Shown: one piece after another, positions 22,157 to 54,822 of the stretch
Numbering within the stretch: the first letter of the stretch is position 1
Layout of the letters: the number at the start of each line of letters is the position of its first letter
Source of the DNA: Gemmiger formicilis
GTDB lineage: Bacteria > Bacillota > Clostridia > Oscillospirales > Ruminococcaceae
Assembly: GCF_016900095.1 (NCBI RefSeq)
Contig: NZ_JACJJP010000022.1
Span: forward strand, 1-54,935
Length of the DNA: 54,935 nucleotides
Direction of reading: 5' to 3'
Program-made: the position numbers and the translations under genes
The notes under the pieces: model-generated
What the model saw: the letters and a program-made list of their open reading frames with translations, nothing else
Databases searched by the model: none
Told to the model about the DNA's origin: nothing

Positions 22157-24751
22157 ATGAAAGAGTACACGCATAAAGAAATCAAACAGAAACCCGGCGG
22201 GCGCTTGCCCAAAGAACAGCCATCCCGCACCCTGCCCAAAACGATGGCCCGGCAGGCGTGGCTGAAAAGCAAGGAGAGGGTCTTTTCGGCAACGAAAACA
22301 GACCCGGAGAGCAGCTATGCTTCCGCACAGGAAATGGAGGAACAGGGCATCCGACAGGGGGAAACGCTGCTGGAGGATGGCGCGGCCTTTGCTCTAGGGA
22401 AAGCCGGGAATAGCGCCCGCAGACATTTTGCCCATGGACACAAACCGAACCAGTGCCCGCCACGGGAGGAAATACGGGAAGGAAACTCGCTGCACCCAGA
22501 CACGGCCAATCCAGACCCGAAAACGGCTGCAAGGCAGGAACAGAAACGCCGCGCGGCAAAGAAGCAAATCCAGAATTTCCAGGAACGGCAGAGGCGGGCC
22601 AAGAGTGCTGCCAGAGGACTGCGCGGCGTCGACCGGGATCAAAAGCAACTCCGCACGGCAGCCAACACGGTGCGGCAAGAGAAGCAGGCCCGGCAAGCGG
22701 CACAGCGCACACAAGCGGTGCTGTGCCGTGCCAGACAAACCGCCCGTGAAGGCGTAGAAGCGGCCAAAAAGACAGCGACGGTTCTACGCTCGGCCGTCCG
22801 GCACCTGCTGGCTGTCCTGTGGAGCCTCGCAGTGGCGCTGGTCGCAGGGGGCTGGGTTACGGCCTTTATCGTGCTTTTGATTTGCCTGATCGCCTTGGTG
22901 GCAGGTTCCGCCTACGGCATCTTCTTTGCAGCGGAAACGCCCGATGAAAATGCCGTCACCGTGCAGGCTGCCGTGGAACAGCTAACTGAAGAATATCGGG
23001 ACCAACTAGAAGAAATTGAGGACAGCACAGAATATGACCGCCAGGAGATCGAGTCAAACGATGGCAACTATGCCATTGCATGGCAGGATGTCCTGGCGGT
23101 TTTTGCGTCTCAAACGGCGGGCGATGCCAATGGTGCCGCTGTTGCCTATCTGGATGAGGATAACGTGGAGCGGCTGCGCACTGTTCTTTGGGATATGAAC
23201 GAACTGGACTGGCGCACCGAAACACAAACCCGTGAGGTGGAGCAAACCAATGAAGCTGGCGAATCGGAAACCACAACCATCACCGAAACGGTTCTGGTCA
23301 TCCAACTGACCCACCACACCCCGGAAGAAATGCGGGATGCTTATCACTTCACAGAACGGCAGAACGAGTACCTCACACTGCTTTCAGGAGAAGATACCGC
23401 GACCCTTTGGGGTGAACTGCTGGGTGGTTTTGTGCAGGGGAGCGGGGAGCTCATGGCGCCCGGCATGGATACGGTGTTTGCGGATGGTGCCCTGCAATGG
23501 CCGCTGCCGGTGGCGGGAACAATCACCTCGCCGCAAGGGTACCGCACCGATCCTTTCACGGGAGAAGTCAGTTACCACAGCGGTACCGATATCTCGGCAC
23601 CGGAGGTAACGCCAATTCTGGCCGCCGCAGACGGCACCGTCACCATTGCCAACGCCACCGACAGCTGGGGCGGCAGCTACGGATACTATGTCAAGATCGA
23701 CCACGGCGGCGGGCTGACGACTCTGTATGCTCATTGCTCCGGCATCTGTGTTACGGTGGGTCAGCAGGTGCAGGCCGGACAGGTCATTGCCTATGCCATG
23801 GCGCAGATGCTGAACCAGCGGGGGTTGCGTACCCGCCAGGGAGCGGAGTTTCAGTCCTCCAACATTAAACGGATGATCCAGCACGAGGGGTACACGGGAT
23901 ATATCATTACCAAGGCGGCACGGTCGGAGTTTATGCCGCAGCTGCAGATCATTGACGAGGCTTTGTTCGCCAAGGCCAACGAGATGAACAGCAAAAGAAG
24001 CAAAAAGGCTCTGAAAGAAAAAAATGCCGCCCAAAAGAGCGGCAATCCAACATTATTGGCCGGCATCATAGTCTGCGCACATTGCGGGGCGAAGATGTCG
24101 GCCTTCTTGCATACAGATCGATATAAACTGGCCGATGGGAGTATCCGGGAAAAGGTGCAGGCAAAGTACAACTGCTACCAGCGCGGCCAGCACCTGCGGC
24201 AATGTGATGGTCAGTCACTTTATCTGGCAGAGCGGGTAGACAGAATTGTGCTTACTTACGCCGATGAACTGTTCCGCAAGATTAAGAGCGAGCCTTATGA
24301 TAAGAGCATCGAGCAGAAGATTCGTCAGCAAGAAGCAAACCATAATAGAAAAAAGCAGGCTGCCGAGAAGAAAATCAAGGCAGCCCAGTACAAGCAACAA
24401 CGCTATGAGGATGAAGTGTTGAAATGTCTGGAAGGGGAGAGCGCCTTCTCGCAGGAGATGCTGGCCCGACTGATTGCCCAGGCAGAGGCTGAAGTCAGGC
24501 AAGCAAAAGGTGAGTACGCAACTCTATTGCAGAACAATGATGACCGGACCACGGTACAGCAGATCCGCAGTTACTACGATGAATTCCTCGGCTGGGCAAA
24601 TGAATTTGATCTTGCCACAGTCCAGAGGAAAAGAGCTATCCTGGCACAGCTGTTCGAGAAGGTGGAGGTTGGAAAAGGATACAAGATTACAATCCATGTG
24701 CGAGGAACATATAAGCAGTTTTTGGGAGAAGAACTACATGGGGAATTTTAA
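22157..24751 (+). CDS. Chimera: conjugative-element M23 protein fused to serine recombinase C-terminal half
   Basis: Open frame of 864 codons built from two unrelated proteins. Residues 1-546 match the layout of CD1108-like proteins of Tn1549-type conjugative elements: a charged glutamine- and arginine-rich cytoplasmic part, a membrane segment near 215-256, an external linker, and an M23 domain with HSGTD (His474, Asp478). Just after GQVIAY (546) it switches to AQMLNQRGLRTRQGAEFQ, the recombinase domain of a large serine recombinase, then a zinc ribbon (Cys pairs about 641-685) and the long coiled coil, ending normally. Missing are the M23 HxH motif and the recombinase catalytic N domain (with its serine), so neither activity is expected. 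It probably arose by deletion; it stops 6 bases before the tRNA-like repeat. Confidence 0.8.
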   Translation: MKEYTHKEIKQKPGGRLPKEQPSRTLPKTMARQAWLKSKERVFSATKTDPESSYASAQEMEEQGIRQGETLLEDGAAFALGKAGNSARRHFAHGHKPNQCPPREEIREGNSLHPDTANPDPKTAARQEQKRRAAKKQIQNFQERQRRAKSAARGLRGVDRDQKQLRTAANTVRQEKQARQAAQRTQAVLCRARQTAREGVEAAKKTATVLRSAVRHLLAVLWSLAVALVAGGWVTAFIVLLICLIALVAGSAYGIFFAAETPDENAVTVQAAVEQLTEEYRDQLEEIEDSTEYDRQEIESNDGNYAIAWQDVLAVFASQTAGDANGAAVAYLDEDNVERLRTVLWDMNELDWRTETQTREVEQTNEAGESETTTITETVLVIQLTHHTPEEMRDAYHFTERQNEYLTLLSGEDTATLWGELLGGFVQGSGELMAPGMDTVFADGALQWPLPVAGTITSPQGYRTDPFTGEVSYHSGTDISAPEVTPILAAADGTVTIANATDSWGGSYGYYVKIDHGGGLTTLYAHCSGICVTVGQQVQAGQVIAYAMAQMLNQRGLRTRQGAEFQSSNIKRMIQHEGYTGYIITKAARSEFMPQLQIIDEALFAKANEMNSKRSKKALKEKNAAQKSGNPTLLAGIIVCAHCGAKMSAFLHTDRYKLADGSIREKVQAKYNCYQRGQHLRQCDGQSLYLAERVDRIVLTYADELFRKIKSEPYDKSIEQKIRQQEANHNRKKQAAEKKIKAAQYKQQRYEDEVLKCLEGESAFSQEMLARLIAQAEAEVRQAKGEYATLLQNNDDRTTVQQIRSYYDEFLGWANEFDLATVQRKRAILAQLFEKVEVGKGYKITIHVRGTYKQFLGEELHGEF

Positions 24752-24756
24752 CTACA

Positions 24757-24834
24757 CCATTAGTATTGGTCAGTTGGTAGAGCAACTGACTCTTAATCAG
24801 TGGGTCCTGGGTTCGAGTCCCCGATGGCGCACCA
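24757..24834 (+). pseudogene. Damaged tRNA-Lys copy (candidate attR)
   Basis: From 24770 to 24835 the sequence is identical to the intact tRNA-Lys (anticodon CTT, T arm, CCA). The 5' end differs: ACACCAT replaces GCGCCAT, destroying two acceptor pairs, and five extra bases sit after CCATTAG, breaking the D region. It should not fold as a working tRNA. The recombinase-derived gene ends just ahead of it, the usual place for an integrase next to an attachment site. Confidence 0.75.
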
Positions 24835-24835
24835 A
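24770..24835 (+). repeat. Right 66-bp direct repeat of tRNA-Lys 3' region
   Basis: Perfect match to 23-88, in the same orientation, delimiting 24.7 kb. Confidence 0.9.
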
Positions 24836-31668: not shown

Positions 31669-31680
31669 ATGGCGCACCAA
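31669..31680 (+). repeat. Third copy of the tRNA-Lys 3' tail (12 bp)
   Basis: ATGGCGCACCAA equals the last acceptor bases and CCA of tRNA-Lys and is followed immediately by a hairpin terminator, as in both larger copies. It may be an old attachment-site scar. Confidence 0.45.
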
Positions 31681-33883: not shown

Positions 33884-34146
33884 CTTCCTTTTGTGACCAA
33901 AAGGAAGCGAAAAGTCCCACCGTTTCGATGCGGTGGACGCCGACCAGGGCGTTTTTTGCCCGGGCGGCTATGCCGCCCGATGGCGCTTTGCGCCATGCAA
34001 AAAAGCAACGCGCAGCGTTGTTTCCGAAATAGGTCGGCCGCACAAAGCGGCCAATGGTACGAGGCAGAAACCTTGCCCAACCCAAGATGCGGCCACCTTA
34101 CGACGGCCTACTCACCGGCTGGGGCCGGTGAGCAAGGAATGGATTT
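33884..34146 (+). repeat. Multi-hairpin intergenic element, copy A (expanded)
   Basis: Begins with perfect hairpin CTTCCTTTTG-TGAC-CAAAAGGAAG (33884-33907), then CCACCG/CGGTGG, and ends with CTCACCGGC-TGGG-GCCGGTGAG and CAAGGAATGG. Relative to copies B and D it has about 110 extra bases in the middle, themselves made of hairpins (GGGCGGC-TAT-GCCGCCC, ATGGCGC-TTT-GCGCCAT, CAACGC-GCA-GCGTTG). No coding potential is credible. Confidence 0.8.
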
Positions 34147-45026: not shown

Positions 45027-45494
45027 ATGCTGGATCAAGCTTTTCAGCAGGTGTATACCAAGTTCAAACTGCACTTTTACAAACAGGTATTCAACAAGTT
45101 CGAAACCCGCGAAGCCACGCTGACCACGGTGGAGTCGTTCTGCATGGAGGTCATCATGGCGCTGGGCAGCCCGACCATCGCGGAGTTTTCCAACATGATG
45201 AACCTGTCCACCCCCAACGCCGCCTACAAGATCAACAATCTGGTGAAAAAGGGGTATGTGAAGAAGGTACAGTCCGAAACCGACAAGCGCGAATACCACC
45301 TGTACCCCACCCGCAAGTACATTGATTATTACAGCATCAGCTATGCCTATCTGCAAAAGGTGGTGGACCGGGCCAAGCAGCGCTTCACGGTGGAAGAGCT
45401 GCAAAACCTGGAACGGATGCTCAGCATCGTCTCGGAGGAGCTCATGCCCGAGATCCCGCTGCCCAAGTCCGGCCCGGCGATGCCGCAGGAATAA
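45027..45494 (+). CDS. MarR-family regulator, FabT-like by position
   Basis: Winged-helix regulator of 155 residues. The recognition region reads TIAEFSNMMNLSTPNAAYKINNLVKKGYVKK, followed by the wing ETDKREYHLYPT, as in MarR proteins. It starts at ATG 45027 behind AGGAGG; the in-frame upstream part, overlapping fabZ, is rich in arginine and not credible. Placed last behind the fatty acid genes, it is a good candidate repressor of the operon, comparable in role to streptococcal FabT, acting at the repeats around the acpP promoter. This is inference from position and operator shape. Confidence 0.82.
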   Translation: MLDQAFQQVYTKFKLHFYKQVFNKFETREATLTTVESFCMEVIMALGSPTIAEFSNMMNLSTPNAAYKINNLVKKGYVKKVQSETDKREYHLYPTRKYIDYYSISYAYLQKVVDRAKQRFTVEELQNLERMLSIVSEELMPEIPLPKSGPAMPQE

Positions 45495-45502
45495 ACCAAT
45501 CA

Positions 45503-45547
45503 CAGGCTTCCTTTGTTCGGTACGAACAGGGGAAGCCTGTTTTTGTT
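45503..45547 (+). terminator. Terminator of the fab operon and regulator
   Basis: ACAGGCTTCC and GGGAAGCCTGT pair with an inner GTTCG/CGAAC stem and are followed by TTTTTG. Confidence 0.8.
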
Positions 45548-45584
45548 TCTGGCTTCTGGGGGAACGGCTGCTGGCCGTTTAGTT

Positions 45585-45732
45585 CTTCCTTTTGTGACCA
45601 AAAGGAAGCGAAAAGTCCCGCCGTTTCGATGCGGCGGCCGCCGACCAGGGCTGCGGCCCTGGACCCGGGGATGCGCGGCCACCTTACGACGGCCTACTCA
45701 GGTCCTGGGGGGGACCTGAGCAAGGAAAATGA
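45585..45732 (+). repeat. Multi-hairpin intergenic element, copy B
   Basis: Same order of hairpins as copies A and D: CTTCCTTTTG-TGAC-CAAAAGGAAG, CCGCCG/CGGCGG, CCAGGGC-TGCG-GCCCTGG, GGCC/GGCC, CTCAGGTCC/GGACCTGAG. The second and last stems differ in sequence from copy D on both arms. Confidence 0.8.
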
Positions 45733-45797
45733 TTAAAATGGCGCAAGGGAAAGTTTCTGCTCAGCAGCCGTTACCGGGCAATGGTATTAAAACCATA

Positions 45798-45943
45798 CCT
45801 TGTTCACCGGGCCCCAGCCCGGTGAATAGGCCGTCCCGGAGGGGTGGCCGCATATGGGTCCAGGGTTGAAAACCCTGGTCGGCGTCCACCGCATCGAAAC
45901 GGTGGCGCTTTTTCCGTCGCTTTTTGGCGTCAAAAAGCGACAA
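45798..45943 (-). repeat. Multi-hairpin intergenic element, copy C (inverted)
   Basis: Lies tail to tail with copy B. Read on the minus strand: GTCGCTTTTTG-ACGC-CAAAAAGCGAC, CCACCG/CGGTGG, CCAGGGTT-TTC-AACCCTGG, GGCC/GGCC, TTCACCGGGC-TGGG-GCCCGGTGAA, CAAGG. Confidence 0.8.
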
Positions 45944-45978
45944 CCCAACGGCAGGCAGCCGTTTGCCAAGAAGCTTAC

Positions 45979-46024
45979 AACCCCTCAGTCGCCTTCGGCG
46001 CCAGCTCCCCTTACACAGGGGAGC
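45979..46024 (-). repeat. Short CTCCCCT repeat, inverted copy
   Basis: CAACCCCTCAGTC...CCAGCTCCCCTTACACAGGGGAGCC is the reverse orientation of the repeat found at 49484 and 49735. It carries its own GGCTCCCCT-type hairpin. Confidence 0.6.
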
Positions 46025-46046
46025 CGGTCTCGGTGCCCGCAAACCA

Positions 46047-46084
46047 AAAGAGGAGAACCTCCTTCCGGAGATTCTCCTCTTTGT
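46047..46084 (-). terminator. Terminator of uxaC
   Basis: AAGAGGAGAA/TTCTCCTCTT with inner CTCC/GGAG pairing; the minus strand ends in TTTT. Confidence 0.75.
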
Positions 46085-46102
46085 ATATTCGGCAAACAAA
46101 TA

Positions 46103-49437: not shown

Positions 49438-49528
49438 AAGCCTCCCCTGTGCAAGGGGAGGTGCCGCACCTTTTTCCTCCAAGCCTCCCCTGTGTAAGGG
49501 GAGGTGCCGCGCAGCGGCGGAGGGGTTG
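49438..49528 (+). repeat. Two tandem CTCCCCT short repeats
   Basis: AAGCCTCCCCTGTGCAAGGG and a near-identical unit starting at 49484 (GTGTAAGGGGAGG), the second extended by GTGCCGCGCAGCGGCGGAGG. Each unit folds as CCTCCCCT/AGGGGAGG. Confidence 0.7.
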
Positions 49529-49572
49529 GCCGGGCTCTTGTCGCCTGGCGGACGGAAGCCTGCCGAAGAGTC

Positions 49573-49721
49573 CTTCCTTTTGTGACCAAAAGGAAGCGAA
49601 AAGTCCCACCGTTTCGACGCGGTGGACGCCGACCAGGGCTGCGGCCCTGGACCCGGGGATGCGGCCACCTTACGACGGCCTACTCACCGGCCTGGGGCCG
49701 GTGAGCAAGGAATGGATTTGA
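49573..49721 (+). repeat. Multi-hairpin intergenic element, copy D
   Basis: Hairpins in order: CTTCCTTTTG-TGAC-CAAAAGGAAG (49573-49596), CCACCG/CGGTGG, CCAGGGC-TGCG-GCCCTGG, GGCC/GGCC, CTCACCGGC/GCCGGTGAG, then CAAGGAATGG. Nearly identical to the outer parts of copy A. Confidence 0.8.
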
Positions 49722-49734
49722 ATGGCTCTTCCGG

Positions 49735-49882
49735 AAAGCCTCCCCTGTGCAAGGGGAGGTGCCGCGCAGCGGCGGAGGGGTTGTAAACCCTGCCTGATTT
49801 CCCGTTACCGGGAAAACCCGTCAAGTCTCCAACCCCTCAGTCGGCCTTGCGGCCGCCAGCTCCCCTTGCACAGGGGAGCCTT
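49735..49882. repeat. Inverted pair of CTCCCCT repeats upstream of uxaA
   Basis: A plus copy (49735-49783, CCTCCCCTGTGCAAGGGGAG then GCGCAGCGGCGGAGGGG) faces a minus copy (about 49829-49882, CAACCCCTCAGTCGG...CTCCCCTTGCACAGGGGAG). Together with copy D they fill the 49412-49996 gap; no gene is seen there. Confidence 0.7.
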
Positions 49883-54676: not shown

Positions 54677-54822
54677 GTCGCTTTTTGACGCCAAAAAGCG
54701 ACGGAAAAAGCGCCACCGTTTCGAGGCGGTGGACGCCGACCAGGGGTTTCACCCCTGGACCCATATGCGGCCACCCCTCCGGGACGGCCTACTCAGGTCC
54801 TGGGGGACCTGAGCAAGGAAAA
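54677..54822 (+). repeat. Multi-hairpin intergenic element, copy E
   Basis: Hairpins GTCGCTTTTTG-ACGC-CAAAAAGCGAC (54677-54702), CCACCG/CGGTGG, CCAGGGGT-TTC-ACCCCTGG, GGCC/GGCC, CTCAGGTCC-TGGG-GGACCTGAG, then CAAGG. Belongs to the same subtype as copy C. Confidence 0.8.

Follow-up and report, generated by a model that had tools for sequence, protein, structure and literature searches.

Do the covarying hairpins that recur between genes of Gemmiger formicilis belong to an RNA, or to DNA that folds as a single strand? The question was raised by a short interval of the window (the whole 54,935-nt stretch of contig NZ_JACJJP010000022.1 that was analysed), for which the original prediction described six copies, A to F, of one hairpin series and left two readings open: a structured ncRNA, or a non-autonomous element mobilised through single-stranded hairpins. 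All six copies were found at the positions given for them, and the stem letters quoted match the sequence. A model (R1) made from 18 copies of the same genome scores B, C, D and E at 135–156 bits, divides A into two half matches (70 and 64 bits) and recovers F as a cut-off match (16 bits); because the model was built from own-genome copies, these scores are partly circular. The repeated hairpin series is real, but the facing arrangement of the copies, a loop latch (pseudoknot) and a mirror third strand had been missed. Each copy is a single arm of a larger unit with a left (L) and a right (R) arm (B/C and E/F), with A and D being solo L arms, and copy A, though present, is not contiguous (Table 1).

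Table 1. Arms in the window and their parts, with positions in the window.
Feature	Position	Strand
Copy A, solo L arm; nested hairpin-rich insert in hairpin 3 (about 33951-34085)	33884..34138	+
Outer hairpin 5' of arm B, AACGGC..GCCGTT type, differs among copies	45562..45580	+
Copy B, L arm of the B/C unit	45585..45726	+
B hairpin 1: pyrimidine arm, loop TGAC, purine arm	45585..45608	+
B mirror third strand, CGAAAA	45609..45614	+
B latch GTC, complement of loop bases GAC at 45596-45598	45615..45617	+
B hairpin 2	45618..45637	+
B hairpin 3	45645..45662	+
B hairpin 5, L type, CTCAGGTCC..GGACCTGAG	45697..45720	+
Spacer of the B/C unit	45727..45796	no strand
Copy C, R arm of the B/C unit	45797..45944	-
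C hairpin 1, GTCGC type, differs from B	45917..45940	-
C third strand and latch, CGGAAAAAGCG; GCG pairs with loop CGC	45906..45916	-
C hairpin 2	45886..45905	-
C hairpin 3	45860..45878	-
C hairpin 5, R type, TTCACCGGGC..GCCCGGTGAA	45803..45826	-
Copy D, solo L arm	49573..49711	+
Copy E, L arm of the E/F unit	54678..54819	+
Copy F, R arm of the E/F unit, inner end only, cut by the contig end	54905..54935	-

Other repeats share the window. The insert that interrupts hairpin 3 of copy A is a second hairpin-rich repeat (with CAACGCTGCGCGTTG), which also occurs within hairpin 1 of several R arms (L031, L050, L051, L066, L077, L081, L083). Another intergenic repeat, GCCTCCCCTGTGCAAGGGGAGG..GAGGGGTTG, lies at 49440-49530, 49737-49785 and 45960-46020; it is often found 3' of solo L arms and also inside units with long spacers. 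A tRNA-Lys gene occupies positions 12-88, and an exact repeat of 66 nt from its 3' part lies at 24770-24835, after a recombinase gene (22157-24751), with a shorter piece again at 31669-31680; these 3' repeats possibly mark integrated islands.

The two arms of a unit, ~145 nt each, face each other and are unlike. Gemmiger genomes carry dozens of such intergenic units: 52 distinct facing pairs were collected from own-genome and named-MAG loci, and 52/52 combine an L with an R arm (49 by script, 3 by eye), although they are not 52 independent insertions because some are orthologous. The spacer measures 71–126 bp in 46 pairs and 167–258 bp in the other six. L and R arms differ at hairpin 5 (CTCAGG.. 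or CTCACCGGCTGG.. in L; TTCACC.. or CTTCTCACCGGTC.. in R) and in the tail after it, which in R arms is CCATT..CC. They also differ at hairpin 1: none of the 34 pairs with both arms fully parsed has the same stem class in both arms (8.2 expected; zero never reached in 5000 shuffles), and L–R identity is 78.1% within a unit and 83.5% between units. Two relatives whose arms have other 3' parts (G054, G151) likewise hold facing pairs of two unlike types, with like hairpin-1 stems in both arms of one G151 unit. Several contigs end within arms; like-armed units are possibly under-counted because short-read assemblies break at them, and heterotypic pairing may thus be partly a matter of ascertainment. 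Solo arms by script number 23 L and 4 R. Of the 23, four combine a hairpin 5 resembling that of R arms with a different tail, and a fifth is arm E, with its partner F truncated at the contig end; 18 clear solo L arms remain.

That the stems vary with pairing kept proved true of hairpins 1, 2, 3 and 5; the GGCC/GGCC stem is invariant among aligned copies, and covariation therefore says nothing on it. In 31 distinct own-genome copies (four hairpins plus latch), 99.4% of 899 pair cells hold standard pairs, as against 88.8% with the 3' letters shuffled (0/500 shuffles reach the observed value), and shifting the partner by 1–3 columns lowers pairing to 36–51%. Alignment of these copies bears out the predicted covariation, with 120 cells changed on both sides versus 36.9 in shuffles; the number of pairs with a both-side change (11/29) is not above shuffles (mean 10.0; 157/500 reach it). 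Among 19 diverse arms, 98.2% of cells are paired, both-side changes number 48 versus 15.1 in shuffles, and one-side changes amount to 1 in 285 cells. The stems remain closed while linkers and spacers vary, and DNA folding of four arms gives z scores of -4.3 to -7.5.

The A-rich linker after hairpin 1 adds a third partner. It reads as the hairpin-1 purine arm reversed rather than complemented: 178/179 purine/purine positions are concordant (A-A or G-G), where shuffled combinations of linker and purine arm give a mean of 0.80 and a maximum of 0.89. Here 32/211 positions with a pyrimidine were set aside and two linkers were re-read in a longer form; both strands were anchored at their A-runs, which raises the mirror score, and the shuffles have the same anchor. 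A-run lengths are equal in 29/32 combinations (9.4 by shuffling, maximum 19 in 5000 shuffles). The arms thus have the class II order with a mirror purine third strand by which PIT/BoxC elements are recognised. The mirror linker follows the rule for class II purine-motif intrastrand triplexes, and therefore the bases next to it, described below, would close the triplex onto its own loop.

The bases 3' of the A-rich linker are complementary to the hairpin-1 loop, and loop and latch covary (TGAC/GTC, TCAC/GTG, TGCC/GGC, TCAG/CTG and other combinations), with no loop–latch pairing contained in the model that collected the copies. After low-scoring rows were dropped (112/150 rows used, 7 unparsed), 25/29 combinations have a latch of ≥3 bp versus 7.4 in shuffles (maximum 16); before cleaning the count was 28/43 versus 9.2 (maximum 17). 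Across the diverse set of 19, pairing holds in 96.5% of latch cells and both-side changes occur at all three latch pairs, while the CCGC/CCGCC types of the own genome have two latch pairs only. A viral collection was scanned with seven patterns that fix only stem and third strand; the one with the exact own-type stem had no hits and the others gave 32 loci, representing 21 distinct sites. At these sites a loop–tail match of ≥4 bp occurs in 14/21 (5.0 in shuffles, maximum 11) and the mean match is 4.10 bp (2.84, shuffle maximum 3.57); at ≥3 bp the signal is weak (18/21 versus 11.8, with shuffles reaching 18). Since the viral-collection sites repeat the loop–tail complementarity, the latch extends beyond Gemmiger.

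Could the folded molecule be RNA? A structured ncRNA or an mRNA-end element would account for strongly kept pairing, and with facing arms a transcript from either side would meet the sense arm first. The arms resemble known RNA pseudoknots in which an A-rich linker crosses a stem rich in U-A pairs. RNA families usually tolerate G-U pairs; here, 2860 pair cells from 97 distinct copies (the top 101 of 131 rows, in an alignment fitted to the model) comprise 2854 Watson-Crick pairs, one G-U, two A-C and three others, and one-side changes are similarly scarce. Gene direction is followed only loosely: copies 3' of a same-strand gene are somewhat commoner than the opposite (59 versus 41, with 8 no calls among 108 copies), and a role as sense 3'-end elements was rejected on this gene context. 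None of the 108 copies lies within a called gene (home-made caller trained on Pfam-confirmed genes), as had been said of the window copies. Promoter-like sites number zero in 45400-46100. Rfam, including HEARO/omega RNA, gave nothing near gathering score and nothing useful at gathering or E-value thresholds for the window, 13 loci and 45480-46000, in keeping with the earlier failure to recognise the family. Purine-motif triplexes, moreover, reportedly do not form in RNA, according to passages of PMC4666352. We consider an RNA element quite improbable. Folded single-stranded DNA is favoured because G-U pairs are near-absent, the purine-motif triplex is said not to form in RNA and gene direction is only loosely followed. 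What had been put down to selection on a folded RNA or single-stranded DNA is indeed folded and covarying, with the DNA half of that claim strengthened and the ncRNA half weakened; folded DNA is probably under selection.

Paired changes without wobble could also arise with no selection at all, if template switching in replication keeps hairpins paired and the copies are decaying palindromic junk. Template switching has been proposed as a source of compensatory change (in passages of PMC8794818), and collapsed units in G255, G267 and G261 resemble palindrome deletions. Copying of a complementary strand, however, gives no mirror third strand; the pairing of the loop latch interleaves with that of hairpin 1, and the closure of stems amid varying linkers and spacers also speaks against such a by-product, which we regard as unlikely.

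Comparison of insertion sites agrees with the expectation of a structured, multi-copy family whose occupancy differs between relatives. At an epimerase gene (10 of 30 listed loci compared), the unit is present in the own genome (G000), in opposite orientation in G267, represented in G264 by an R-type left arm followed by the contig end, and collapsed between two hairpins 2 in G261; it is absent from six genomes (G277, G257, G266, G254, G269, G220). At a MarR-type gene (15 loci compared; the G264 sequence stops short, and in others the neighbour differs), G000 carries the unit, only outer hairpins are left in G267, hairpin 1 is fused to hairpin 1 in G255, and G261 has a unit 3' of the gene. G274 has no unit before uxaC. 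These differences fit putative insertion, arm–arm inversion and palindrome deletion.

The position between genes also raises the possibility of a bidirectional transcription terminator or insulator. At B/C there are 8 terminator-like sites versus 1.6 (sd 1.5) in shuffles, some of them being the antisense strand of hairpin 2 followed by CGCTTTTT; yet some of the eight are weak or coincide with the terminator of the host gene (45502-45540), no T-run follows hairpin 5, and genes of the same direction also flank units, as at the epimerase site. The related PIT elements are without terminator activity, by earlier work cited in passages of PMC4666352. A terminator or insulator is accordingly given little probability.

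The own genome (98 contigs, 3.26 Mb) holds at least 44 DNA matches (40/82 first-look candidates scored) and at least 43 matches to the 18-copy model (150/3856 scored). All of these 43 lie on 8 contigs (C14, C16, C17, C22, C24, C25, C34, C39) that make up 476 kb, or 14.6% of the genome. As a check on whether the copy-rich contigs derive from another organism, a C5 gene was compared; its nearest counterparts lie in the same relatives (88% to G264, G267 and G261), and this one gene gives no sign of chimeric assembly. A search with an exact pattern returned 56 stretches, all from genomes that bear the titles Gemmiger, Faecalibacterium sp. UBA1360 or Oscillospiraceae. Matches occur in 27/35 genomes of the genus (0–70 each) and in at least 9/247 of the family (12 candidates scored per genome); with a hairpin 1–hairpin 2 model (R2), 17/295 genomes of the order and 5/398 of the phylum matched, own genome included. 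Several weak R2 hits (e.g., L173, L176-L178, L180-L182, L196-L198) were judged by eye to be chance. Plasmid and phage collections contained no DNA similar to the B/C unit.

Inverted pairs, intergenic position and a high, variable copy number would suit a REPIN/BIME-type element mobilised by a REP-associated tyrosine transposase, and REPINs and BIMEs, as described in the portions of the literature compared, are likewise small inverted intergenic pairs in many copies. The Gemmiger arms are larger (145 nt), have several folded parts and lack the GTAG/GGAG tag of REPINs and BIMEs, and no RAYT-type gene was found beside them. Two complete Y1 transposase genes are present in the own genome, plus a fragment where a contig starts; the two full genes have identical flanking hairpins and adjoin no arm, which leaves the REP/RAYT link without support and makes this origin scarcely credible. 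These two genes (L163 and L164, on C88 and C66 of G000) are near-identical, and we take them to belong probably to an IS200-like element. The bcr1, ERIC and BOX elements, compared by description only and as far as those descriptions go, likewise recur in many copies between genes and conserve a secondary structure; we know of no third strand, latch or L/R pairing in them. The unit has inverted arms; MITEs are defined by terminal inverted repeats together with a target duplication and a parent transposase.

The closest known kin of the Gemmiger units are the PIT/BoxC/TMECO repeats of E. coli and its relatives. As characterised in passages of PMC4666352, PIT/BoxC elements are class II motifs with the same order of pyrimidine arm, purine arm and third strand; they are intergenic without strand bias, differ sharply in copy number between relatives, and face each other as type A plus type B in all five facing pairs there, comparable to L/R in 52/52. 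Parts of both members are lost from PIT pairs such that a stem-loop can form, and in Gemmiger too both members are partly lost with a stem-loop left. The PIT/BoxC motif is 37 nt long and G/C-rich (CCCTCNCCC type), whereas the Gemmiger triplex is A-rich and has a loop latch that covaries; the arm that contains it comprises four or more folded parts. Two BoxC copies in a K-12 stretch have no latch and no clear latch, respectively. Neither a scan for the TMECO type nor a strict scan for 8-nt triplexes found anything in the window; all their hits fell in the E. coli stretch, on which alone the TMECO consensus regular expression was run. The Gemmiger unit thus seems to behave like a PIT pair, and its new features would be that it is A-rich, latched and set within 145-nt multi-hairpin arms.

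The reading we prefer, with somewhat better than even confidence, is a non-autonomous intergenic repeat with two inverted, unlike arms, each folding as a latched single-stranded DNA triplex. As single-stranded DNA, an arm would form a class II purine-motif intrastrand triplex from pyrimidine arm, loop, purine arm and mirror purine third strand; the bases that follow would pair with the loop as a latch, and hairpins 2, 3 and 5 would come next. We infer that the fold forms in cells once the strand is exposed, during replication or a single-stranded transfer step, and that the folded arm may stall synthesis. Units might spread with the help of an enzyme acting in trans or by copying linked to replication; a search for one transposase family turned up no partner enzyme. 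Spread via a single-stranded intermediate is conceivable, at somewhat less than even confidence. Unlike arms may be retained because two like arms would pair together as a long palindrome instead of folding singly.

Whether intrastrand triplexes matter in living bacteria has been open since PIT motifs were described; in passages of PMC4666352, a study of 2015, the E. coli motif folds in vitro but forms no stable triplex in living cells. We found no report of such covariation-plus-latch evidence in open-licence papers. A broader proposal, which we hold only tentatively, is that intrastrand triplexes with a latch form an ancient class of single-stranded DNA structure, widespread in bacteria, in which stem, mirror third strand and latch co-evolve; in Gemmiger, such triplexes would have been incorporated into both of the dissimilar ends of a mobile unit whose recognition and copying take place in the folded single-stranded DNA state. 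Mirror plus latch is a signature for finding such elements elsewhere, and the covariation pattern supplies concrete testable mutants. If the single-stranded DNA reading is true, triplex letters that change in step across pyrimidine arm, purine arm and third strand, together with the loop latch, would be evolutionary evidence that DNA triplexes are maintained in bacterial genomes.
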